Shown: positions 19,201-64,000 of the stretch, piece by piece | How the letters are laid out: each line of letters begins with the position of its first letter | Numbering within the stretch: position 1 is the first letter of the stretch | DNA from: Apostichopus japonicus | Taxonomy: Eukaryota; Echinodermata; Holothuroidea; Aspidochirotida; Stichopodidae | Assembly: GCF_037975245.1 (NCBI RefSeq) | Contig: NC_092579.1 | Location: 5,073,501-5,137,500, forward strand | Direction: 5' to 3' | Length of the DNA: 64,000 nucleotides | The notes under the pieces: model-generated | Seen by the model: only the letters and a program-made list of their open reading frames with translations | Database searches by the model: none | Told to the model about the DNA's origin: nothing | Position numbers and translations under genes: made by a program

Positions 19201-22200
19201 GGAGTTTTTGAGTCTACAGGTGGGTAGCTTTGACATCAGTTAGCAGCTTATAGGAGTATGAGGAAGGGAAGGTACTCATAAGGACATTTTGTCAAGAGAA
19301 AGGCTATGAGGGTTAAATCATGTATCCCTCTTCGTAGATCCAGTTTACCCTCAGGTTCTTTAGCCTATTGATATGCTCGAAAGTTTATTTTAATGCTAAG
19401 TCACTTGACCACCCCTGTGCAATTGCCCCCCCCCCACACCAACCCCTCTCCCCTCAAGGGAATTGGAACAGTATTGGACTATAATAACTACTGTACTTCC
19501 TGGTAACCTTGTCACAGCTTGCTACAGCTTCAGAAAAATTCTAGATGAGTGCTGTTATTATCCGACAAGGCTAAGAAGCTTTTCTGGCCCTCTGAAGAGA
19601 CATCAACCAAATATTACAATTTAAAACTTAATCTTTAAAGCATTGTTCAATGTGCAAGATTTAAAAGTATCGTCATGGCTACTTGCCCTACCATCCAATC
19701 TGCTGTCTGTTAAAACACAAACATGCAATGATCTCTGTGTGTGTTCATCTCAGAGAATGTGCAGTGATGACAAAACAGAATGCATGATACACAGTCTCCT
19801 TCAATGTGTGGTTCCTTAAGACTCTTTCCATACACAACCTACAGTACTCATCAATAAATGTCTCTGCAGCCCAGTGAGAAAAAAGACCACAATATGCACG
19901 TCACAAAAACACTAGGAAATTAGTAACATATTGAGACAGGTTTCCCCTACTGGCTACAGTACTGTAACTTATTAGTTACAATCCAGGCCTGTTTATTGAC
20001 TAAAACAGATATCCTGGGCTTTCTAGAGTGACAGATCAAACATTTCTACCCACGGTCTGCTAGGTTTTTTGAAAGGAATAATCAATTCGTTTTTAAGAAA
20101 TTTTTCCTTGGTTGCTAGGGTGATGGGAGTATTTTCTTTTTGATGTGTTTTATATTACGTTTCTTGTCTTCATGGGTAATTACATTAAGTTGTCTGTCTG
20201 CTTGCGCACATAGGGGACCTCTAGGCTTTGTATTGTACAAATACTGTATGTGTTATTTGAGGGTATTTGCATGTCATTAATGGTATGGAGAGTATAAAAT
20301 GTCCGATCCATTTCGTTTTCTAATAGAGAGAAATTTGCTTCCGAGGAGGCGAGTAATGGGAGAAAATTGATGTTGTCGGTTCGTCTCAGCATCCTCAGGG
20401 CAGTTGTCAGTTTCAGTTTGTGTTGAATGCAATGTTGGGAATCTCTGAGACGGGGGAATATTACGATCAAAATGAGTAATGAATGAGAAAGAGGGGGTTA
20501 GGAGGGGAGGGGAATCGGGAGGGGAATCGGGAGGGGGGAGGAATTTCAACAATTTGAAGGAAGTGGGGAGTATAACAGGGAATGGTACTTTTCCTGCAAA
20601 GTTTGCAAGAAGTTATATCTCTACAGTACCTCCACTACATTTTGCTTTTAATACACATCTTCTCCCTGGACGGTACATTCTGATCTAATAGTGAGTGACA
20701 GCTAAACACCACGCAACTGCTCTTATCATCCCACCTATATTTGCATGGAAGACGTTAAATTCCAGAATAATGAAGAAATATTGTTTTTAGTGTGAAAATT
20801 TGTTCATAATATTACAAAACTAAGAAAAAGCAAAGTGAAATGTCTTGTTTTGTGTGAATTATTCAGACATAAAATTTATTTATTTCTTTTTTTTCTTTTT
20901 CTAGATACCTGTTATGTGCTGTCCTTCTCTGTCATCATGCTGAACACCAGCCTCCACAACCCAAACGTGAGAGAAAAGCCAGACCTGGAGAGATTTGTGA
21001 TCATGAATAAGGGCATCAACGAGGGGGGCGACCTACCCAGAGATCTCTTGAAGGTAGAAGCCATGACCCACCCCTCCATACTTCATAATCTGTTACGGCA
21101 TCTCTTACCTAAATATAAATCAATTTAAGCCTAAGGAAGAACATCTTACTGACTTGACTAAAGTAGCATTTGCATCAATACCCTGCAAAGAGATATGTGA
21201 CTCCGTATAGTAAGCAGAGGTGATTCCCCCCCCCCCACCCAACCCCCCCATCCTCCTATGCATTTCTACCACGTTTTTTTCCTTCTCCCCATCCAAACAT
21301 GTACACACCATTAGTTAGTTATCATCACAACTGTTCCTGAAGCACAAAATTCTTTGTGTGGAATGATTTTAAGAACAAACACTTAGTTAAGTTATGCTCT
21401 GTGTATCCTCTTATACAATTCACATATATGTTTCGTTAGTGCGGTACTTTAACTGAGGCTGTTTCTAAAATTGAAACATCATCTCATAATGGAGACAGTT
21501 TGTCTCAGTGGACTGGGTATATTTTTTGGTCAGCCCAAAGCATATGGTTTCTCTGAGGATTTGTAACCTTTAACATGTGTCTGAACTTTTTTTTAATGTG
21601 AAGTGAATGCACTTTTTAACTGTCCTTGATATTGTTAGCCTTATCTGCCTTGGCATATGGTATGGAATCTTCATTGATATTTACTTTATAGAATATCCAA
21701 GCCATTGTATGTAGGGACTCACCTAAAGCACATGTAGCTTTGTATGCCAGTTAGGAGAAATTTGTCCTGTTAGCCAAGAAATCAAGTAAAGTTCTAGACA
21801 AATGCTTCCAACCAATTCCATTTGGGGAACGCATTGGCCAGGTGTAATAGCTACAGAGAACAATGAATCATTTCAGAAAAGAAAAAAATCCATGATGTTT
21901 TACAATTCTCTACTGTTAGAATTATCATTCGCTTGAGAAACTAACTAAAATATGTCAAGTGGAACTCTGTTTTGTGTATGTGCGTGTGTGCGTGTGTGTG
22001 TGTGTGTGTAAGGGTTACATGGAATGAGTAATAAAGTAATTTCATTATATCTCCAGCTGCTCATTCATGACAATGATCTTTTCTTTCATGGGTCTGTTCC
22101 AATTATGTTGCCCGTAACTTCACGAGTGTCTTTTTAATATTGTTCCGTGTTGCGTGTAGAGCCTGTACGATAGCATCAAGAGCGAACCGTTCAAGATTCC

Positions 22201-25200
22201 CGAGGACGACGGCAATGATTTGACGCACACCTTCTTCAATCCAGACAAGGAAGGCTGGCTGTGGAAGCAAGGTATGTTGTTTGCGTATCTGATTCAATGT
22301 GGCTGCATGCAGTCTTGTTTTGTCCCGCTTTTGCTCGTGGAAAGACTGGAAAGTGTTGCAGAATGATGGAGAGCTGAGGTCAGGCAAGGGAAGCAGTAAT
22401 CAGGAAATAGATCTTACTTACATATCAGAGGCCAAAACACTTTATTTAAGTCCTCCTGGTAAAAGATGGACACTCGTGATGATGTGAAAAATTATGAGAA
22501 AGATGTGGAGGGTCCATTCTCATTATATGAACAATGGTGTTCATGAAATTGTGGCTAGTGAATGATTGTCCTCTATGCTAAGCGTGTAGATGCAGCCTAT
22601 CCCAAAAAATCTGATTTCAAGCCCCTCCCATTGCCCACTCCATCACACCTCATCTTAAAAGCCCCCTCCCCCCTCCTTTTTTCTTTTTTGCATTTTCACC
22701 AGTTCTCTCTTTTTTTTGTGTCTCTTTTTCTTTCTTTCTTTTGTGGAAATCATGAGCCAGTGGCTTCAGATTTAATTACTGCGAAGATATTTCTTCTCAG
22801 CATATGACATATCAGCAATTTACTCAGGTATTCTAAGAATTACTGAAGTGTCACAGTGTTACCCTTAAGCTTTCTGGCATTCTCTTTGTGTAAAACTAAA
22901 AAGTAAAGCCTACTGTCTTACCAACTTGCATTTGAAATCATCAAACCAAACCAAAGCATTACAAGTTAAATACATTAATCTTGACAAAGAGAGGATTTAC
23001 ACTTCATTCCCCCCAAGTTTTTCCTCAGAATGTTGAGTCATTTATCAGATTCACCGTTGGTCTAACTTCCTTCCATGTTATTTTGGTGTTACGGAAGTTT
23101 GCGGTGAATCATTCTGAACTGCAGGGGTTGTGTAAACCTTTTTAACTTAATAAATTATCAATTGCAGGAAGTCAACTTTCTCTTTTAATAATGACATCCC
23201 ATCATAAAGAAACAGAGAACCATATAGAAAAGTAAAAGTGTTCACATCCTGATCTCTGATAGTAGATTATATCAAAGTGGGCTTCGTATTCTTTAATATC
23301 TGTCAACCCCCCCCCCCACTTCTTTTTCACTGGATTTGAAAATTCTATCAATCTAGCATGTGCAAAGTGTATCATGTTCCTCTTTCATGCACTTTTATAA
23401 AGCCTGTAGCTTGATTTATATTTCAAAATATTTTGACCGCATCTGATGGCTTTGGTCATGGTTGTGATATCTTTGTAAATTTTTTCAAACTTAGACAAAC
23501 ACAGTTCTGGTTCTGTCTTGGGTGGGGAAGGGCAGAGGGGGGGTGGGTTAGAAAGGAGGGAATGGATTACCACTAATGGATTATTTAGTTGGAATGAAAT
23601 GCCAAAAATCTTGATTCAATCTATTGATTTTGGCCAAATACCTTGAATGATTTGTGGTCACATCTAAACTCAAACATTAATAATAGACTGAATGGAATCA
23701 AACTGATTATAAAAAAATGCACATTTCTGCTAGAATTAATTTGTTTAGAACTAATTTTTTCAAAAAATTTATTTGACTTATTTTATGAATAAAATGAGAG
23801 AAGACAAGTGTCAAGAAACTTGTGTCAATGAAAGATCTTACAAAATAATAAAACCGGGGTTGGGGACCAATTTAAAAAAGAAGTTCATCAAAATACCAAA
23901 TAGGATCAGTGTATTATCACTTGCTGATAGGCTGTGCAACTTTGTAAACATTTAAAAAAAGTTCAAACATCTTGTTCAGATTGTTTAAATTCGACAGATT
24001 TCTGTGGTCGTTCCGTTCTGGATAGATCCAAGAATGAAAATGATTCTTCTGCATTCCGATAATGTTCATTTCAAACTAGTTGCACAAAATTTTGATGGAA
24101 ATATGGAGTAATTTGAAAAGCTATAATGAGTTATGAGAATGTGTATTATGAGGTATTTATCAGGATGCGTATTATAAGAACGTGTGTTATGAGGGTGTGT
24201 ATTATGAGGTGTGTATAATAAGGATGTGATATGAGGACGTATATTATGAGGATGTGTATTATAAGGACGTGTGTTATGAGGGTGTGTATTGGTGTGTATT
24301 ATAAGAACGTGTGTTATGAGGATGTGTATTATGAGGTGTGTATTACAAGGATATGATATGAGGATGTGTATCATGAGGGTGTGTATTATGAGGATGTGTG
24401 TTATGAGGGTGTGTATTGGTGTGTATTATAAGAACGTGTGTTATGAGGGTGTATATTATGAGGTGTGTATTACAAGGATGTGATATGAGGATGTGTATCA
24501 TGAGGGTGTGTATTATGAGGACGTGTGTTATGAGGGTATGTAGTATGAGGTGTGTATTATAAGGATGTGATATGAGGACGTATATTATGAGGATGTGTAT
24601 TTTGAGGACATGTGTTATGAGGGTGTGTATTGGTGTGTATTATAAGAACGTGTGTTATGAGGGTGTGTATTATGAGGTGTGTATTATAAGGATGTGATAT
24701 GAGGACGTATATTATGAGGATGTGTATTATGAGGACATGTGTTATGAGGGTGTGTATTGGTGTGTATTATAAGAAAGTGTGTTATGAGGATGTGTATTAT
24801 GAGGTGTGTATTATAAGGATGTGATATGAGGATGTATATTATGAGGATGTGTATTATGAGGGTGTGTATTGGTGTGTATTATAAGAACGTGTGTTACGAG
24901 GGTGTACATTATGAGGTGTGTATTATAAGGACGTGATATTAGGATGTGTATCATGAGGGTGTGTATTATGAGGACATGTGTTATGAGGGTGTGTATTATG
25001 AGGTGTGTATTATAAGGATGTGATATGAGGACATATATTATGAGGGTGTGTATTATGAAGATGTGTATTATGAGGACGTGTGTTATGAGGGTGTGTGTTA
25101 TGAGGACATGTGTTAAAAGGGTTTGTTGTTATGCAGCCATAATATCTATGAAAAGGGAGAAGAAGTGAAAGTTTGGTAGCAAAGTTGTAGTAGTCTAGCA

Positions 25201-28200: not shown

Positions 28201-31200
28201 AGGCCTAGCTTTATAGGATACTGTAGCAGTGTTTCCATTGAGTTTAGGTCCTCTATCTCTGTATGTTGCTGCTGGCTTAAACAATAATAGCAAACTGCAG
28301 CTACGTACTTATTAGTTTTATGTTTAAGTTTTAAAGTTTAAGTTTTGCTATTAAGTTTAAGCTTCCTGTTATGCTACTGACTGTGTTTGTAACTGTCAGT
28401 AGCCATGCCCTGTTGAATCCATTTATGTGTTTGCAGGATATTAGCTTCATCAATGGTACCAAGTCTAGTTTCATGGGATACTAGTATCATATATGTCTGT
28501 ATTTAGTGAGTAGAAACCTAGTTTGATATGGAACTGGCTTCATCAATGGCTAGCAAAAGCCATGTCCTGTGGAGTACCAAGTCTAATTTCATGGGATACT
28601 AGTATCATATATGTCTGTATTTAGTGAGTAGAAACCTAGTTTGATATGGAACTGGCTTCATCAATGGCTAGCAAAAGCCATGTCCTGTGGAGTACCAAGT
28701 CTAGTTTCATGGGATACTAGTATCATATATGTCTGTATTTAGTGAGTAGATACCTAGTTTGATATGGAACTGGCTTCATCAATGGCTAGCAAAAGCCATG
28801 TCCTGTTGAGTACCAAGTCTTGTTTCATGGGTTACTGGTATCATTACTGTCTGTACTTAGTGATTAGAAACCTAATTTGATACGGTACTTGCTTTATCAA
28901 TAGCTTCCAATAGCCATGTCCTGTTGAGTACCAAGTCTAGTTTCATGGGATACTGGTATCATTACTGTCTGTACTTAGTGATTAGAAACTTAGTTTGATA
29001 TGGTACTTGCTTTATCAATAGCTGTTAACATATCCATGTCATTCTAAAAGTTCATGTCAAACCTTTGATGTTCAGTTACATTACACTTATTGTCATCATC
29101 GTCATCATCATCGCCATTGTTTCAGTGAAGCAGAGCATGAATTACAGATAAAGAACATTTTAAGCGATAGCAACTAATTTTTGCATGACTCAAGTCATAT
29201 TTGCCTTGACATCACATTAAAAGACTGGTTAGTTTTGAAGTTAAAATTAGGTACCATCTATCAATGAAAGTAATCAAAAGTTATTTCTGAGATTTCCGAC
29301 TTCACAGGACGATTGATTTCATGTCTCTCTTCTCTGTGTACCTGTGTGTGTTCTTTGTATACATGAGATACTTCATATTATTATCACAGTGACTAGTAGA
29401 CAGGGAGTTTGGAGAAATAAAAATCGTTATTAAATTAAAGATCGGAGAGAGTCGACCAGCTTCATTTAAATGTACTTTAAATGTACAGAGCAATGGATAG
29501 GCTTATTTTGCATATCAAATGAAGTATCACAAGTCTGGTTTATATAAACTTGTTTTGAATAATTTAATTTGACTTCCAATGAACATAGGCCAAAGGGGGG
29601 AGGGTTTTGTTTTTAATGGGGGGGGTTGGAGTTTCTGTTCTTTAATTATACTTTTAACCACATGTCTTACATGGGTGACTACAGTTCATAGTAACTCTTT
29701 TGACTGATAGTATTTATGTTTGTTAGCTTGTGTCTCTTCCAATGTCCTGCTTTTGTGTTTGTGATTTGTGAAAGGAAAAACTCAGGCAATTTGCAGCTTG
29801 TCAAAGTTGAAGTAACTATCTGTTATCCTTAGTCTGCTAGAAAGACCAAACCTGGTCACATAGTTCAAATATATTAATATTGCTGTTGTCGCTGTCTGAT
29901 GTTTGGTGTTCATTTTTGGGAAATCCATGTTCTGGTCATTCCTTGTCTCCGGGTAAAGATCACCACCACTGGTTCGGGTAAAACCTAACCAGTGTGCTGG
30001 TGTGTGCATTCTCGAGATGTGTCATTTCTTCACGATGGTCGAATAGGTTTGTAATGGAAGTTTACCGAACTGTAACCCTTGTGAGACGCATCGGCGATGT
30101 TCTTCGTCATTGATTTGAAAATCTCGACACAACTTTGCTCTCCACTCGGTCGATTCTTCATCCGTCGTTGGTTTATCAATTGGATGCAGCCATCTGCCTC
30201 TTTAGGCTAACCCCATCCTCATTCATATTTTCTGATCTGTTCCTAATCAGTGCACATTTGAACTATTGCCAATCACTGATTGGCTAATTTTAATTGTTAT
30301 GCTCCGGTTCATTACCATAACTTCATACCGCCCTTCCTCACAACAAATTTTGCTATCCATTGTATCGTATCGTTTTATTCTACAACATTGTGTTTATAAT
30401 CTGGTGTGACTTTGATTTTAATGTCGGTTTGCTTAATACTTTTATGCCGGGCTTGGGAGGTGAACTGACTACCCTTCTGCTATAATTCCTTCCCCCCCCC
30501 TCCACTGTCTTGTAAAACTAACGACGGACCCACCCACTACCATTGTTTATTCTTTACACATCTTGACCCAATATTTATTCAGGGTAGTAAACAGGACTAG
30601 TGAACAACATTTTCCAAAGTATATTTGGGAGAAAATCCATTTGAGTGTGAAATTGTACTTTAATTTATGTATATTTGCCTTTTTTGGTCTCATACATCTA
30701 CATGAAGAAATGTCCAAATTGACAGTATTTTCGAAAATTTCACAAACGTGCCTTTATAGGCTCCTGGTCAATAGTGGTAGTATTTAGTTAGCTCGTAATT
30801 GAATTTGCGACTGAAGATTTTGATCCTGAAGAGTTGATTAAATTAATGTTTCTGAAAATAATATTTCACCACTTTGTGCACCATCAGTTCATATATTAAA
30901 ACTTTTGACATTAAGTACTAACTCTTTTGGATTTTAATGTACATCTTTTATTGCTGTACAGCTTGTCGTACTGTACGGCTTGTATAAAAGTCACTGCGTC
31001 TTCAACTGACAAAGTTAGGACAGTTGTTTGATCTCTGAAAGACATCTGTTACCTTGTGCATGGTTTGGTCACATGACTAATTAGGCATGTATCTTTCAGT
31101 TGCTATTTTTGCCCTTTTCGTTAGCACTAAATCACTTTTCGAAAAAGATTGCTCAGCAACAAAGTAGGAAGATTTTGTGGAAAATGCACTGTGAATTGTT

Positions 31201-44625: not shown

Positions 44626-47600
44626 CTGAGAGGAGAATGAGAGGTACAAACAGATAACAGATAGAGAACTATCGACACGTATGATCTCATTGTCATAGCA
44701 ACATCGGTTAAGGAGATGAAACGAGTGTGTAAAGTTTTCTTGCCTTGAGCAAAACAAAAACTTGTAAGAAAACATTTTGAAGGCAGGACAAATTTCTCAT
44801 TTTGCAACTTCACTTCAACCTAACATGGTGAAACATACTTCAAAGCTGAATGAGAAAGCTAGTGAGCTTGAGTGTTTTCTTTACCAACAGAACAGGCTTA
44901 GTGATTCATTGCACTTGTCTGAATGAGAACATTTAGTATAACACTGCACGCAACGTTTCAACATTGTTACCATTACTGGTAATCGCGAGCTTGGTGCGCC
45001 AAAGTGGAGCTATATCTCAAAAATGACGTTCAACCAAGCTTAACTTTTGAGTTAATATGTTAATAACATTTCATACTTGTACCTGTGTGAACCTCAAATG
45101 ACCTTTGACCTCCACTAACACAATAGTGTGAAGTTCAACAACCACGAGTTACGATGTTTGATAGCCAAGGTAACAAGCATACACACAAACACACATAGAT
45201 AAACTTCTGAGTTGAAAACGGAATTTAATTTTACACAGAGCATCATTGCCAGGTGATGGCTCTGTTATCAGGTGACCTACCTTCAAGGCATCGTTTTCTA
45301 AACCAGTATCTAGATGGTGAAGTTCGTCGTCACGGAATTTCTTTAGAATTTCTAGGAGGTCTTTGTGCTTTTCAGGATCTTTCTCTATTAATTGCCTTAT
45401 TTGGCTGAAATGAAATAAAGGGAAATGAAAAGTTTCATGCAGTTCACAGATTCAATCTAGCAGTTCACAGATGTGGTCATTATTGTAAATTTAATCGTGT
45501 TCTGTTCAACATCTCCATGGAAACATCATGACTTTAACAACTCTTACTGTTTATTAATGTCACAAAACTTTAATTTGACACCTTCACCAAAGGCAAAAGA
45601 GGTAGAAATGCTAGCTATTTTCCAATGAATAATGCACCACTATGAGAAAGAAATGGGACAGCCAAAACAATGGCATCTAAAAATGAGGTCACTCTGTGCT
45701 ACACGCAGACACCCAGTTTACTTTGTGAAAGAAAATGCAAACAAAAGGCTCATAACATCTTCATAGCACTATTACCAAGGTCAAACCTGATTTACATAAG
45801 TATACCCTACTGCATCAGGCAGAATATCCTATTGCTACCAGTTCATATGACTTATTTCATATCAACCAATTTTTTTTATGAGGAAAGATGGAAACAGTTC
45901 AAATCATTCATCACCTGACAGTTCTCTAAAGCAAATTTTTTTTTATGAAATTGGTCTTGTATTTAAAGACTGTATTTCATTGGTAAATAAATCACTGATT
46001 CATTGTAGGTTCCGCAATGAAATAACTCACACACTACTGTCCATTTGATTACCAATTGTGCATTGTGAAGCGAGGCAAAGTGTATTAGCCACCTCCCTTC
46101 TACCTCACGAACATTTGTTAAGCTAGGTTTAAATCAAAGCAAGTACTTAACAATTCATTTGACTCCTGAAAATTTTGTGCCAAATCACACTGTCAAATTG
46201 TACTATTGGGGTTCACTGGACTGGTACTAGTAGCAGTAAATACTGTTTGGTAATACATAGCAGTAAATGCATTCATTGTCTCTGATCCACTAAATTGTTT
46301 GTTGAAAACAGGTTTGACCTACTATTAATATTTACATTTATGTATGATTGACAGTTTATGGATTTGGTCTTTTTCATTAGCGAGTATTTTCAAATCTTCA
46401 ATGTTTCGGTAGCAGTATCACAGTAATAATGTCAATGTCAAACCAGGGAGTTGTTATGGAACAACTCCCTGGTCAAACATAGCATTGTCCCTGTTCCACT
46501 AAATTGTCTGTCGACATCAGGTTTGACCTACTATTAATATTTACATGCATGTAAGATTGACAGTTTTATGGATGTAGTCTCTTTCATTCACGAGCATTTA
46601 AACTTTGTGTTATTCACACTTTTTTCTGTAGCAGTAATTTAACATTTTGGGAAAAGAAGGTTCTGACTTACTCATAGCAGGTGGATACTAAGTGGGGTTC
46701 TGTGGTCAGATTTGACAGGTGGGTGGTCAAAAATAATTTGAAATGCTTTTATTCACCTAGCTGGTTTCCTGTGTTTTAGAGACGGACCATCCTCTTTTCG
46801 CGACACTCACACAGAATAATTTATAGCATTGCAAAATGCTATGCAAACTTGACAAAGTGGTATACATGTGCAAATATGTATGGCAGTTTAATGTACATAG
46901 GAGCCATAGTATATTACAGAGAAAGTTCAGAGCCTTCGAAACTGCTACTGAAACTTTGAACACTAGATCTTTCCCTGCCTAACCATTGGTCGACACAGCA
47001 AGAATCATCTGCATACGACAAGGAGACGTATATCTCCGCAGAAGCATTTGCGTTCTGGTTGAGACTATACCTACTCGTTATAGTGTTCTCCTATGGCTTC
47101 TTCTACCGCAACTGTACACGCCATTGCAGCCTCTTTGCCAAAAATTGCACTTCCTGCTCCTGAAAGATCAACAGAAAACAGCAATTCATTTTAGACTATG
47201 AGTAGAACAGGAAGTATTAGACATTTCACTCAAACACTGCACCAAACCTGAAACCTCGTTAGTGAATGGATTAAACTTCACTAGACTCACTCTCAATTGT
47301 TCACCACTATAACAGGCTAGCAGTATTCAGTATGAGCCCCATCTCTCTCCCCTCACTGCAACACCCCCCCCCCCCGCCCTCTCCCCTCTTTAAACAGCTG
47401 TACACTGATTGTTGCATATCAAACTTATTGACTGCCCTTGCTTGCCACCATCAATACTTTTGAACTATAAACTATAAAAAAAAACTTTCCTAAATTATAC
47501 TAGAATTTCCAGTAATAGACTTTGAGCTGCAGATGACTATTATTAAACACAGCTTGATGCATTTGTCAGAACATCCTGGCACTCAAATACACAAGCACAA

Positions 47601-49223
47601 AACATATCATTAGTAAGATGCAATAGTATAACAACATTCTTTCATTCATTTATATATTTACTTGTACATTTATTCCAGGGCAAATCGGTAAGCCACAGCC
47701 CTTGTTTACAAATATGGAATAAAGATTTGCATGTTTATATATCATATATAAATATCTTTATATATTTGCATGTTTATAAGGAAAAACTGTTTTACTGGCA
47801 ATAGAATATTGTTGTAACCATGTCTCTAACCATTGTGATGGAGTTGCTATTGCATCACACAATAATTAGCTATTAACCAGCAGAGTAGCAGACTTCACTT
47901 TTTTAGGTTGACAAGGTATTGTAACAGTATGCACCTATATAATATTAATAATATTGAGGATTTATAAAGCGCAAACGCATCCACTGATAACGGTGTTCAA
48001 GACGCATCACAATATTACCCTGGTCAACAGTAAACCTGTCAAATATAGAGACTATCCCTCCACATGGCAGCAGCTAAACAGCGCCCAACTGACAGTTTAT
48101 CTCACAGGTCCCCATTTATACACCTGCAGGGTGAAGAGAGGTAATGGAGATAAAGTGCCTTGCCCAAGGACACAACGTAATGATCTGGCCAGGAATCGAA
48201 CTTGCAAACCTTTGATCACATGTCCACTGCTGTAACCACTTGACCACAACGCACTATGCACTGATTAGTTGAGAAGACAAGTTGGTAGGCCGATGTTAAA
48301 CTGGCTATTAGTTTCATTTTTCTTTGGAAGAGATAATGGAAGCTTTCCATACATCTAACAACAAGATGCAATAATAGTGACGCTGACATTTGTTTTTTCA
48401 AGCATCAGTTTATCATGACATTTTGTGGTTATGAACAAACAGCAGGTCATCTTAAGACAGCCATACCCAGAGTAAAACCAGCAATATTCCACAGGGGAAG
48501 TAAGGCAGTGGGTCTGGCTCGATGCTGTGGGATCAACTTCTCAAATGTTTCTCGGTGTTCTTTTTCTTCATCCCACATTTCCTGAGAAAATGTAAAAAAA
48601 AAAAATCCAATTTACAATCCGTAAAACTGTTTAGAACAATTTCTGATTATACTATTGTTATTAGTTAATAATTAGTAAGCTGTTAATGCAGCAGCAGGTT
48701 TGTATTCCAGTACTGAATTAATAAAGTTGATCATGCAGTTTCTACCAGCTTCATTGATCATATGAATTAGAAAGCTAATGAAAGTGTTTGCTTACTAGCT
48801 GAATGTAAGGTATGACCAGTAACCACTGTTTATGCAGACTGTACACTGATGACTATAATCTACCAGGAATGAAACTACCTTGTAGTCATAGCAGGGACTA
48901 TCAATACTGAATGAGGATGACATTCTTCATCCCCCTTCCCTCCCCCTCTACCCTCTCCCCTTGACCATTCCAATTATCACCTGTATCAATGGACCGACAG
49001 AAGTATTTCGTAACACGGCAAGCTGTCCCTCGTAAATCTTGTCCGCTCCAACTTCACCTGCATGGTCTACCCTGAGGATCCTATCGATCAATTTGTCAGA
49101 AGTCATTCCATCGGAGGAACTGGCCGATCTGTAGCTAGATATTGCGAGTAATCTCGGATGACGTTGGCAGATCCCACGTATTGATGTCCGACTCAGTCCT
49201 TTCGCGAGTAGCGACGGATGCAT
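44548..49223 (-). CDS. COQ7: COQ7, 5-demethoxyubiquinone hydroxylase, mitochondrial (5 exons)
   Basis: COQ7 is the di-iron monooxygenase that hydroxylates demethoxyubiquinone, the penultimate step of ubiquinone synthesis, on the matrix face of the inner membrane in a complex with COQ9. Exons in transcript order: 48981-49223, 48467-48581, 47075-47159, 45281-45404, 44548-44625. All junctions are GT-AG with consistent phases; the product is 214 residues, against 217 in human. Residues 1-35 are rich in Arg and Ser with no acidic residues, as in a mitochondrial presequence. The six ferritin-like iron ligands are present: E57 (in RVDHAGE), E87 and H90 (EKEH), E139 (VAVEE), E175 and H178 (ELHH). Each is offset by three from the human positions. 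The end, AGCRTAIWLSERI, matches the family C terminus. The start is supported by an in-frame stop at 49248-49250. It is convergent with cytohesin. Confidence 0.96.
45100..45112. promoter_or_regulatory. DR1-type nuclear-receptor half-site pair
   Basis: TGACCTTTGACCT is a perfect direct repeat with one-base spacing, the type bound by RXR or HNF4. Similar words near 5751 and 26600 suggest it may come from a dispersed repeat. Confidence 0.25.
45281..45404 (-). CDS. COQ7: COQ7 exon 4: fourth helix, ligands E175 and H178
   Basis: Acceptor CATTTCAG and donor GTAGGT. It reads (D)QIRQLIEKDPEKHKDLLEIL, then KKFRDDELHHLDTGLENDALK, matching the conserved DEELEHHD region of COQ7. Confidence 0.95.
46278..46610. 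repeat. 209-bp-spaced direct duplication with a hairpin between the copies
   Basis: Two copies of about 100 bases (starting near 46270 and 46479) share TTTGACCTACTATTAATATT and flanking words. Between them 46442-46455 and 46460-46473 form a perfect 14-bp hairpin with loop ATGG. It lies in the COQ7 intron between exons 4 and 3. Confidence 0.8.
47075..47159 (-). CDS. COQ7: COQ7 exon 3: third helix, ligand E139
   Basis: Acceptor GATCTTTCAG and donor GTAGGT. It encodes AGSAIFGKEAAMACTVAVEE and ends EHYN plus two bases. If the donor is skipped, the frame meets TAG two bases on, so the junction is well fixed. Confidence 0.93.
47941..48256 (-). mobile_element. tRNA-derived SINE in a COQ7 intron
   Basis: On the - strand, an A box TGGTCAAGTGG (48246-48236) and a B box AGTTCGATTCC (48202-48192) lie 44 bases apart, as in a tRNA promoter. 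They are followed by GTGTCCTTGGGCAAGGCACT (about 48174-48155), a body segment I associate with SINEs widespread in marine invertebrates. The far end, near 47951, has TTTATAAAGCGC and AATAAT-type repeats. The end points are approximate. Confidence 0.7.
48467..48581 (-). CDS. COQ7: COQ7 exon 2: second helix, ligands E87 and H90
   Basis: Acceptor TTTTCTCAG and donor GTATGG. It reads EMWDEEKEHRETFEKLIPQH and then ALLPLWNIAGFTLG, matching the family DQEKDH and PLWN segments. Confidence 0.95.
48981..49223 (-). CDS. COQ7: COQ7 exon 1: presequence and first iron ligand
   Basis: It starts at ATG 49223-49221 and encodes 81 residues, with the presequence followed by DRILRVDHAGEVGADKIYEG and ending VGPLIQ. 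The donor GTGATA is weaker than the others; reading past it gives a short non-family tail and a stop. Confidence 0.95.
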
Positions 49224-49394
49224 GATGGAAATTTGCTTCCAAACGTATTAAACCCAATACATGCAACTGGTCTGTTTTGACAGAAGAAAACATTAATATT
49301 AGAAAAGTATTGTAAGCTGGATCTGTAGTCATAAATCTAGATCTACAGTATGCAAAAGCAGCAGTGAAAAGAGACTGAAAGTCTAATGTATACA

Positions 49395-49490
49395 TGTATG
49401 TATGTATGTATGTATGTATGTATGTATGTATGTATGTATGTATGTATGTATGTATGTATGTATGTATGTATGTGTGTATGTATGTATGTA

Positions 49491-49521
<31 letters not shown>

Positions 49522-49627
49522 ATGTGTGTGTGTATGTGTGTGTGTATGTATGTATGTATGTATGTATGTATGTATGTATGTATGTATGTATGTATGTATG
49601 TATGTATGTATGTATGTATGTATGTAT
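49395..49627. repeat. TATG tetranucleotide microsatellite
   Basis: About 230 bases of (TATG)n with a few TGTG interruptions, beginning some 170 bases upstream of the COQ7 start codon. Overlapping open frames in it are artefacts. Confidence 0.97.
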
Positions 49628-55478: not shown

Positions 55479-55767
55479 ATGCATCGTGATTTTTTTAAAA
55501 AGCTCCCAGGACAATGGACAAGGTTAGGCGCTAAGGTGAAACTGTCCAGTTTGTTCCTCTCTGCCTTAAAGTCATTTCTCATGTGCCTTGGGTTTTATCA
55601 CCTCATAACGATTGGGTTGATCGCAACTAATTCTTGGACAGATTTTCACCGTCAATCACCGTTTATTACTGACAGAAAACGATCCGAACTCGGCCTCTTG
55701 ACATTACCACCTGAGGACAACGTTATCCGGACATACGTGCAATCGAAATCTAACGACCAAATCAATG
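55479..55767 (+). CDS. Fusion gene exon 1: cytoplasmic tail, signal anchor, stem
   Basis: It starts MHRDFFKKLPGQWTRL and contains the anchor KSFLMCLGFYHLITIGLIAT. It ends with Asn96 and the first base of Val97. The upstream frame has no other ATG. The paralogous exon at 63861 supports both the start and the anchor. Confidence 0.85.
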
Positions 55768-58566
55768 GTAATTATCGAAGTATTTTATATTTCAGTTTTC
55801 CGTTCTATTTCTATATGTGACATAAACTTTAGTTGAGAGTATATATCGTGCCTAGTCCATGCATCATTAAGCTTATTATCATTATCTCTGCATGTCTCCA
55901 CCTATCTGGTTTTTTTTTTCATTTTTGATTTACTATGTAGGCGACAGGCGAGCCGATTTGTACTTTTCATATTTCATAGAAAACAAACTTTGGAAATTCC
56001 ATGTTAACGATGATACAAAGAAGTCGTAATAAGTTTCAAACTCGATAAAGCGTTTCTGAGATGTACGGTATAGTTAATACCCTATTCCACATTATGATAA
56101 TTCATGTTCTGTTTTCGATAGCAGTCTTTTTGCGTTCGGCCGCCAAACCACCCGACGTATTTTCACACACAAAAAGTTGGAATTGATCACAATTAAACCC
56201 CTGTAGATGTTTTCACCAGATGAAGTGTAATTAGTATAAACGCTTAATGATTTAGCCGATTCGAAACATTTCGTCAATCAAATCCATTCTTATATAGTAT
56301 TACCAAAAATTTATTAAAAACTTATAGGTTCTACAACTTTCGACTCTTTAATAATGGACAAGAAACTAATATAAACAATGCCGTCATGCGGTCTTGTTTC
56401 GAACACCTATCGAAAAAATCAATTAAATCTGCTAATTTTGTGGAAAATATGTATAAAAATTTGGGTAGTATATAATGTATTATATAAATATTACATTATA
56501 TCATATGTAATAGATATATAACCAATGAAATATAATTCAGTATACTTAAATGATGACTCACCTTTAACTGTGCGTTAAGTTATTAAATTATTGTGATATT
56601 TAAATATCTAATGTTCTTGACACTGGCCGATTCAGATACAAGGTTGGTATTTCTGAATATCAGAATAATAACATATTACGATATTTAGAACCAAAATCAT
56701 TTATTTAAATAATATATTCACTAACATTTTTTATATTTTTTTATTTGTTTTTCAGTTTTGGAAGGACAAGAAGAGCCTGTTATATTTTCAGATTCGCTAA
56801 TGGAATCATGCCCGCTCGGTTGGGTTTTAGAGATTTCCAAATTTAGCGAAGAAGGAAAGCCACTTTCTCAAGTTTGTCGCAGAAAGATCGGAGGTGATTG
56901 GAAATGCGCACAAGGATGGCACAAACTAGCTGAACATCCATTTTGCAAACGAAGATTTGAGCGACCAATGTCTGTTATCGTGTCAAACAAGCTTCGTCTG
57001 ATTTTCGCACACATACCTCATACTGGTTCTCACGATATAGAGAAATATTTAGCCTGGAACGATAAAACAATTAATGATAACACAACTTACATGAACGAAG
57101 ACGAATATTTCCTTCAACAGATAAAACAAATGTCATTTTCAACATTTCAATCTTTCAAAAATTATCACAAAGCAACAATGGTACACCATCCTTGTTCAAG
57201 ACTTTATTCTGCATGGATCTTTCTGTCGCGGATGAAAACAGAAGGAGCGAAAAAGTGGGCAGAAAAACATCTTGACGAACAAACATTGAACTCGTTTGAA
57301 ACATTCGTTGAAAAAATTCTTCAACCAGAAGGGTCTCGTTCTGTCAAGAATGACTATCATTTGCAAAGCCAGGTTGATTTACTTTTTGGGTTGAAAGATG
57401 AAATAAAACTGGACGAAATACTTTACTTTGAGAGATGGGAAGAAAGTATGAATGTCTTACGAAACATAACTACGTCAGATGCCTTTACCGAATTTCAACC
57501 GCTGATGAATATAGACTTCGATTGCCAGAAAGTATATACTCTGTCAACTTGGTCCAGAATGAAAAGTTTTTACGAAATGGACTTTTGTGTTTTTGGATAT
57601 AATATTAAAATCGACAAAAGTCGAGAATCGCCGTCGATGAGATTAACAAGTGAAACAGTGAACTCTCGATTCAAAACATGTCAACAACAAACTAAAGTAG
57701 AACACGTGGCAGAAGAACAACAAAAGTATCAGGTTGAACCAATCATATTTAATAAAGATGAAAATTTCACAACCGGTGGTTGTACAGTGTATACATACTT
57801 CCAAAATTTAGAAAGCACTAAAGCCACTGATGTAGTAATGCACAACATAACCCTTGATATATGGCAGGCAGCTTGGAAAGCAGCAGGATGGAAAACTCGT
57901 ACTCTAACAGAAGCAGATGCCCTCTCCCATCCCGAATACGAGTTACTTCGAAAGAAATTTGAGACTTTTCCAAGTGTGAATGAAGGCGATTATGAAATTT
58001 CTTGTTTTATGCGTTATATAGCTATGGCGAATATCGGTGGTGGGTGGATGACTGATTTTGACGTCATACCAATTCGTTTCCCGGCATGCACCGAGGAACT
58101 ATATCATGGGAGTTTTACTATCTACCAGAAACATGTTCCATGTATGGTGTCAGCGAGCCCCAGTGAGTACATGCGAATCGTTCGTCTCATGGCAGACATT
58201 CAATGGCAAGGAGACGATCACTTTACCTTCAATGGGAGGCCGCACGTTTCTGACATGCACTGTTTGTTGAAATTTATCAATCAGGGTTTAGTCAACACAC
58301 TGAATGTGATCGTTCCAGCTCACAAATTCTTTACCAAAGAAGATTTTTGTAATGCGACATACGACTCGTTTGTTGGTCAGATACCTCCTAAGATGTCAAC
58401 CCGTCCTTGGGCTGTTCACTTTTCTCACCATTCTGCTAAAATGTTGAAAGCTTACATTAATGTATTGCCAGAGGATGTAGTTAGAAAGTTAGAGTTTCAT
58501 GACAGGGGAACCCTCATGAGGAGTGCTTCTATATTGTTAAACGAGACATGTCGTTTTTATGATTGA
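55479..58566 (+). CDS. Two-domain sulfotransferase-like / glycosyltransferase-like type II membrane protein
   Basis: Exons 55479-55767 and 56756-58566 are joined by a 988-base intron (donor GTAATT; acceptor TTTGTTTTTCAG; the split codon gives Val97). The product is 699 residues. A short basic tail is followed by a hydrophobic segment (about 22-50, best 32-50), a type II signal anchor as in Golgi enzymes. Residues about 170-385 look like a carbohydrate sulfotransferase: IFAHIPHTGSHDIEKYL (about 179-195) sits where the 5' PAPS loop should be, and MVHHPCSRLYSAW (238-250) where the 3'-phosphate loop should be. Residues about 435-665 look like a GT32 or capsule-type glycosyltransferase, with GGGWMTDFDV and its DXD-type DFD at 530-532. 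Six N-glycosylation sequons and many cysteines fit a luminal protein. The catalytic Lys and Arg of both PAPS loops are His here, so sulfotransferase activity is uncertain. The start is the only in-frame ATG and is matched by the second copy at 63861. No precise family name is claimed. Confidence 0.85.
56756..58566 (+). CDS. Fusion gene exon 2: both catalytic-type domains
   Basis: One 1811-base exon carries residues 97-699 and ends TGA. It follows a long T-rich acceptor tract. The TTG at 56758 is an internal Leu codon, not a start. Encoding two domains without introns may point to a retrocopied or transferred origin of the body, with the anchor exon added later; that is inference. Confidence 0.88.
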
Positions 58567-63860: not shown

Positions 63861-64000
63861 ATGTATCGTGAGACTCTATTAAAGGGTCCAGGGCAATGGA
63901 CAAGGCTTAACATCAGATGTAAACTGCCTAATTTGTTTGTCTTTGCCTTAAAGTCATTTCTCATGTGCCTCGGATTTTATCATCTGATAACGATTGGTTC
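63861..64000 (+). CDS. Second family member, exon 1 (partial, cut by window end)
   Basis: It reads MYRETLLKGPGQWTRL and then ALKSFLMCLGFYHLITIG, with 32 of 46 residues identical to the start of the gene at 55479; the anchor stretch is fully identical. The upstream bases are also alike (AAAAGGAACATAATG against AAAAGAACAAAATG). The two starts are 8382 bases apart in the same orientation, so this is a tandem duplicate. The rest of the gene lies beyond the window, so whether it is intact cannot be judged. Confidence 0.8.
   Translation, partial: MYRETLLKGPGQWTRLNIRCKLPNLFVFALKSFLMCLGFYHLITIG

Follow-up and report, generated by a model that had tools for sequence, protein, structure and literature searches.

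The DNA analysed here, referred to below as the window, is a stretch of 64,000 nucleotides (positions 5073501-5137500 of contig C19) in a home genome of 671.6 Mb and 35 contigs. Apart from the gene that is the subject of this work, the window contains two exons of a COQ7 gene on the minus strand (45152-49247; PF03232), an exon with a Sec7 match (20796-21125; PF01369) that is presumably cytohesin-like, and minisatellite and (ATGT)n arrays at 24131-25126, 28456-29023 and 49386-49627. Contamination was considered as a source of this gene and rejected, given that the contig around the window is 32 Mb long, that the Sec7 and COQ7 exons are nearby, and that the home genome yields 48 nuclear-receptor zinc-finger matches compared to 0 in 14 control genomes; we take these zinc fingers to mark the genome as that of an animal.

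The gene in question consists of two exons, 55479-55767 and 56756-58566, which together encode 699 amino acids (2100 bases; ORF analysis of the window). Its product combines a sulfotransferase (ST) half with a glycosyltransferase-like (GT-like) half. The features of the locus, with the evidence for each, are the following.

55479..55767, plus strand: exon 1, encoding a basic N-terminus and a signal-anchor segment (aa 1-96, plus base 1 of codon 97); open frame, hydropathy, and a second copy with dN<dS.
55551..55628, plus strand: putative transmembrane anchor, aa 25-50; Kyte-Doolittle profile.
55768..56755, plus strand: intron predicted from the sequence, GT..AG with a pyrimidine-rich acceptor; the frame is kept across it.
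56756..58566, plus strand: exon 2, encoding the linker, the ST half, the GT-like half and the stop; single open frame, with both halves in frame in 12 readable unbroken genes genome-wide.
56779..56961, plus strand: linker with cysteines, aa 105-165; phmmer segments and Cys positions, similar in paralogues including the ST-less L350.
56977..57606, plus strand: ST half, aa 171-380, PF03567; Pfam match, and profile against shuffles.
57019..57021, plus strand: codon 185, His at the expected position of the PAPS-loop Lys (IPHTG); alignments.
57181..57210, plus strand: 3'-phosphate loop VHHPCSRLYS, aa 239-248, with His240 for Arg and PxxRxxS intact; alignments, and the consensus given in passages of PMC11625862.
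57358..57360, plus strand: His298 in HLQSQ, candidate catalytic base; alignment.
57784..58446, plus strand: GT-like half, aa 440-660; phmmer matches among viral and phage ORFs, the best at 2e-30, and hhalign of animal against viral/bacterial rows.
58012..58062, plus strand: putative nucleotide-sugar/metal site, Arg516 ... GGGW 524-527 ... D530-x-D532; the family alignments show no variation at R, GGG and D-x-D.
58243..58254, plus strand: HVSD, aa 593-596; all 14 aligned animal copies share H593 and D596, and the closest relatives have H-x-S-D.
58417..58419, plus strand: His651, a conserved C-terminal His; alignments.
63861..63998, plus strand: first exon of a probable tandem copy; tblastn E 1.5e-7 and codon comparison and, farther down this contig, a match to the GT-like half.

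Exon 2, 1811 bp in length, is open throughout, and both enzyme halves lie inside it, so that the two are joined whether or not the predicted splice is correct. When profiles were built without the row of the window, the ST half scored 70.7 bits and the GT-like half 122.9 bits, whereas the best scores among 2000 shuffles of the window protein were 10.3 and 6.0, respectively; the ST profile used in this comparison consisted of eight viral sulfotransferases, the window being left out. The claim of the initial annotation that a single 699-residue frame joins both halves is therefore upheld, with the exons as originally placed and both halves scoring far above the shuffles.

One hydrophobic segment (aa 25-50) follows the basic N-terminus and has the highest Kyte-Doolittle value in the protein (1.74), the next peak outside aa 1-60 being 1.13. 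A single-pass anchor followed by a luminal carbohydrate enzyme is the usual layout of such enzymes in the Golgi, and the window protein is probably of this kind, namely, a type II single-pass Golgi protein. Exon 1 appears to be coding, and a tandem duplicate of the gene is indicated, because a similar exon is found at 63861-63998, with 69.6% amino acid identity, dN of 0.23 and dS of 0.67 (46 codons only). The tandem copy is partly unreadable and is 83% identical where matched; a very long open frame at this copy was discarded as an artefact of the unreadable bases.

Searching the home genome with the exon-2 protein yielded at least 25 matching stretches, which include, according to ORF analysis, at least 12 readable, unbroken fusion genes (that of the window among them) with both halves in one frame. 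The remaining copies are a frame-broken one (L342, two ORFs), the partly unreadable tandem copy and one that lacks the ST half (L350), and six stand-alone sulfotransferases (L344-L349) were found as well. When the GT-like half alone was used, there were 15 genome matches, namely, the 12 fusions, L342, the tandem copy and L350, so all GT-like matches reside in fusion-type or derived loci, and none is at the six stand-alone ST loci. Counting that of the window, the home genome thus has this architecture in 12 genes that are readable and unbroken, and the presence of at least 12 such genes in one genome implies that the fusion is a real, expanded family. The L350 locus, on contig C18, comprises the Cys-containing linker and the GT-like half with no ST match, which suggests that the ST half is dispensable; a Pfam scan of L350 detected no family, and in six other fusions it detected no GT model. 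On the same contig, in L340 and L341, an NPHS-type repeat, the length of which varies between paralogues, is present in the linker before the ST half.

The ST half of the window protein matches PF03567 with E 2.2e-9 and 38.2 bits when the exon-2 protein is scanned, and with E 8.9e-11 and 42.8 bits when the half is scanned alone, above the curated cut-off of 22 bits; it is also matched by PHROG 3347, galactose-3-O-sulfotransferase (E 1.1e-4). Five of the six other fusions scanned are above the PF03567 cut-off and one, L331, is below it (17.2 bits); L334, which keeps the PAPS-loop Lys, scores 24.1 bits, lower than the window copy. When viral contigs were searched with nothing but the ST half, no relative could be confirmed, the matches of this half among PDB sequences were all at chance level (best E 0.45, a carbonic anhydrase), and profiles A2, A3 and A4 found no credible relative. 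A mixed alignment of ST-only rows, GT-only rows and the full protein was dropped when the ST rows fell under the GT half.

Despite this overall similarity, the residues expected to bind the sulfate donor are partially replaced in the window copy. According to passages of PMC11625862, the PAPS loop has a catalytic Lys (or Arg) that is highly conserved, and the 3'-phosphate motif reads PxxRxxS. The window protein contains the latter in complete form (P242-C-S-R245-L-Y-S248) and has His185 in place of the former; the initial annotation, which named two sulfotransferase-like loop motifs, is to be corrected in that the first loop lacks its Lys. Among the 12 unbroken fusions, this site is occupied by Lys in eight, His in one (the window), Leu in two (L331 and L332, which are near-identical) and Gln in one (L343); five of the eight Lys-keeping genes form one near-identical cluster in which Ser replaces the preceding Pro. 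The Lys is present in all six stand-alone sulfotransferases and in all eight aligned viral sulfotransferases, and the broken copy L342 has His at this site, as in the window. Position 240, two before the Pro of PxxRxxS, is Arg in 11 of the 12 fusions and in each of the six stand-alones, with His in the window copy only; two of the six stand-alones have Lys instead of the Arg of PxxRxxS. His298 is common to the 12 fusions, the six stand-alones and the broken copy, all of which can be aligned there, and may be the catalytic base. Altogether, eight of the 12 fusions keep the PAPS-loop Lys, both loop Arg residues, Ser248 and His298, along with the DxD site of the GT-like half.

The GT-like half of the window protein has no Pfam match at E<=10, no credible NCBIfam match and no PHROG match at E<=1, and the C-terminal half, used directly as a query, gave no match in viral contigs, plasmids or PDB sequences and three chance-level ones (E 3-5) in phages. 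Relatives surfaced only through a motif pattern scan (GGGW..D[FY]DV) of viral contigs, which gave at least 120 stretches; when the 120 listed, with redundant contigs kept, were searched with the window protein, 113 ORFs matched at E<1e-5, the best at 2.2e-30. In bacterial and archaeal genomes, two short peptide patterns recovered at least one relative, in a Chthoniobacterales (Verrucomicrobial) MAG. An alignment of 31 family members shows three Trp, one Arg and the GGGW-D-D residues to be invariant, and R516, D530, D532, H593, D596 and H651, presumably catalytic, are identical in all 14 aligned GT-like halves of the home genome (the tandem copy left out). Scans of the 31 members against Pfam and NCBIfam brought up nothing credible, the best E values being 0.012 and 0.039, respectively; one member matches a PHROG family without function (E 0.002). 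The animal rows align to the viral/bacterial rows in hhalign with E 3e-42. By this comparison of sequences, the GT-like half belongs to an uncurated GGGW-DxD family of viral and phage genes.

In the viral contigs, the genes next to these relatives look by eye like other glycan genes. In two related viral contigs, PF03567 genes (L125:5238-5789 and L126:6042-6605) lie less than 1.5 kb from close relatives of the GT-like gene. An ST neighbour at E<1e-3 was seen in only two of the 195 non-window GT-like loci, counting redundant contigs, and both of these were in related contigs and in the profile used; weaker ST-like neighbours, picked out by eye before being scanned, are found in L068 (E 0.17, below the cut-off) and in L121, where an NKWYS match is above the cut-off. 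Taken together, the gene neighbourhoods lend weak support to a pairing of ST and GT-like functions. In the Chthoniobacterales MAG (L121:3260-5433), the GT-like relative is interrupted by a stop, the remainder continuing in the same frame and being followed by the NKWYS (PF10364) gene; the end of the ORF before the stop resembles the first part of the GT-like half.

The specific label of GT32 that had been attached to the second half finds no support in a family profile, and amounts to a weak profile-profile resemblance. The GT32 model PF04488 matches none of the 31 family members at E<=1 and none of seven further GT-bearing paralogues at E<=0.1; the same model matches all eight scanned proteins of a GT32 set found by pattern. 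This set comprised at least 120 ORFs, and 50 of 120 were used in hhalign. An 18-row family alignment aligned with it at R-Y..GG..D-x-D with E 0.0014 but a probability of only 17.5%, an enlarged 27-row set with E 0.0019 and a probability of only 14.1%, and the animal rows alone with E 0.029 and a probability of only 1.7%; controls gave E 0.34, 0.47 and 0.5. The window protein does contain the DxD after R(Y)..GG (R516, GGG524-526, D530-x-D532), at a spacing one residue off that of GT32, so a GT32-like enzyme of the GT-A type is a weak lead and not a claim of membership. Separate profile searches of the two halves, as initially proposed, accordingly place the first in Sulfotransfer_2 and leave the second with no match to a GT32 or capsule family. 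The description of the second half as a putative glycosyltransferase draws on the motif pattern rather than on profile matches or characterised relatives.

Identities were compared for seven of the 12 fusions, that is, the window and six representatives of the other groups. The ST halves of the other groups are 49-52% identical to each other and the window is 32-41% identical to them; for the GT-like halves, the corresponding values are 47-50% and 41-46%. The lower values for the window indicate that this copy changed faster than its relatives, the ST half more so than the GT-like half. The ten animal rows of the GT tree group together (100/100), and their clade joins the bacterial and five viral rows at 94/93; in the 18-row family tree, the window row belongs to a nine-row clade with 100/100 support. 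Its branch in the GT tree is rather long (0.98), so the divergence of the window copy is not confined to the ST half. In the ST tree, 18 animal rows group together (99/98), and the fused and stand-alone forms are not separated with support; the window row has a long branch there (1.5), which makes its placement unsure. For recent paralogue pairs, dN/dS is noisy, ranging from 0.18 to 0.82 where defined above zero, and was set aside as evidence on the two halves.

The explanation we put forward, and consider to have an even chance of being correct, is that the window gene would encode an anchored glycosyltransferase with a degenerate, non-sulfating ST domain, in a lineage-expanded fusion family. 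The chain would be a single-pass, probably Golgi type II protein, with a PF03567 domain in front of a GT-like domain of the uncurated DxD family. The latter probably is the working enzyme of the window copy and transfers a sugar; the ST half, having lost the PAPS-loop Lys and the nearby Arg, most likely no longer transfers sulfate and would, instead, bind or position the acceptor, that is, serve as a scaffold. Paralogues that keep the Lys may perform both sugar transfer and sulfation. The retention of PxxRxxS, of His298 and of a PF03567 score above the cut-off makes a weakened or altered sulfotransferase conceivable in the window copy too. Another reading, which we regard as unlikely, is that of a truly bifunctional protein, in which one chain adds and sulfates the sugar in the window copy and in the paralogues alike, with His185 replacing the Lys; and His185 might, indeed, stand in for it. 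Eight of the 12 fusions with both sites complete, the PF03567 gene within 1.5 kb of the GT-like gene in two related viral contigs and the NKWYS gene beside the GT-like gene in the bacterial relative are all consistent with bifunctionality. Nevertheless, the Lys and one Arg are missing from the window copy, where divergence is also faster in the ST half than in the GT-like half, and an ST neighbour occurs in just two of 195 non-window GT-like loci, with both included in the profile. One-step addition and sulfation of a sugar, as suggested in the initial annotation, is thus possible for the eight Lys-keeping paralogues and, judging from His185 and His240, unlikely for the window copy.

The same two replacements could signify a decaying duplicate, that is, a copy on its way to becoming a pseudogene with no present function, and the frame-broken L342 and the ST-less L350 show that copies of this family do decay. 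We deem this improbable for the window copy, where exon 2 is open over its 1811 bp, the key residues of the GT-like half are retained, and exon 1 has dN of 0.23 against dS of 0.67 relative to the tandem copy, albeit over 46 codons only. There is, finally, little likelihood that the second half is a binding domain of another fold and not a glycosyltransferase. Such a domain would agree with the lack of credible Pfam and NCBIfam matches in the 31 scanned members, with the sole PHROG match being to a function-less family, and with the lack of a credible match among PDB sequences; however, R-Y..GG..D-x-D aligns to GT32 at the corresponding place with E 0.0014, compared to 0.34-0.5 for the controls, even if with a probability of only 14-17%, and the viral relatives sit among what we take, by eye, to be glycan genes. 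Beyond the window gene with its degenerate ST domain, we tentatively propose, at somewhat less than an even chance, that the fusions represent a new animal enzyme family combining glycosyl transfer and carbohydrate sulfation in one chain, in which the copies with two intact sites would make sulfated glycan units in one step, and others, including that of the window, would have turned the ST domain into a non-catalytic acceptor guide, several times over.

The usual account of sulfated glycans has separate Golgi enzymes acting one after another. The N-deacetylase/N-sulfotransferases provide a precedent for a Golgi protein of animals in which a sulfotransferase is joined to another catalytic domain; these, however, differ from the fusions described here in that the partner is a deacetylase, not a glycosyltransferase, and the ST domain is of another family. 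That ST domain is among those named in passages of PMC11625862. A fusion of ST and GT is not described in the listed titles and abstract beginnings of open-licence PMC papers, nor in the passages of PMC11625862, PMC6418280, PMC11468063, PMC13390465 and PMC4483657. In a non-animal maker of sulfated glycans, an ST gene is reportedly also fused to another enzyme, and this partner differs from the GT-like half. The family is an animal set within a GT-like family that is unnamed in Pfam, NCBIfam and PHROGs, and as an ST-GT-like family with the sulfate-donor residue kept in some copies and lost in others, it would allow a direct test of the coupling of the two steps. With respect to its second half, the likeness to GT32/Gly_transf_sug (PF04488) and Caps_synth (PF05704) consists in the W-rich segment, R(Y), GG and D-x-D, in the same order; it differs in that neither model was found in the 31 family members, in the GGGW and the extra residue before D-x-D, and in the weakness of the hhalign match. 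With respect to its first half, the likeness to the Sulfotransfer_2 carbohydrate sulfotransferases extends to the profile over aa 171-380, to PxxRxxS and to the conserved His in HLxxQ, whereas the window copy is distinguished from these enzymes by the His in place of the PAPS-loop Lys and by the fused GT-like domain.
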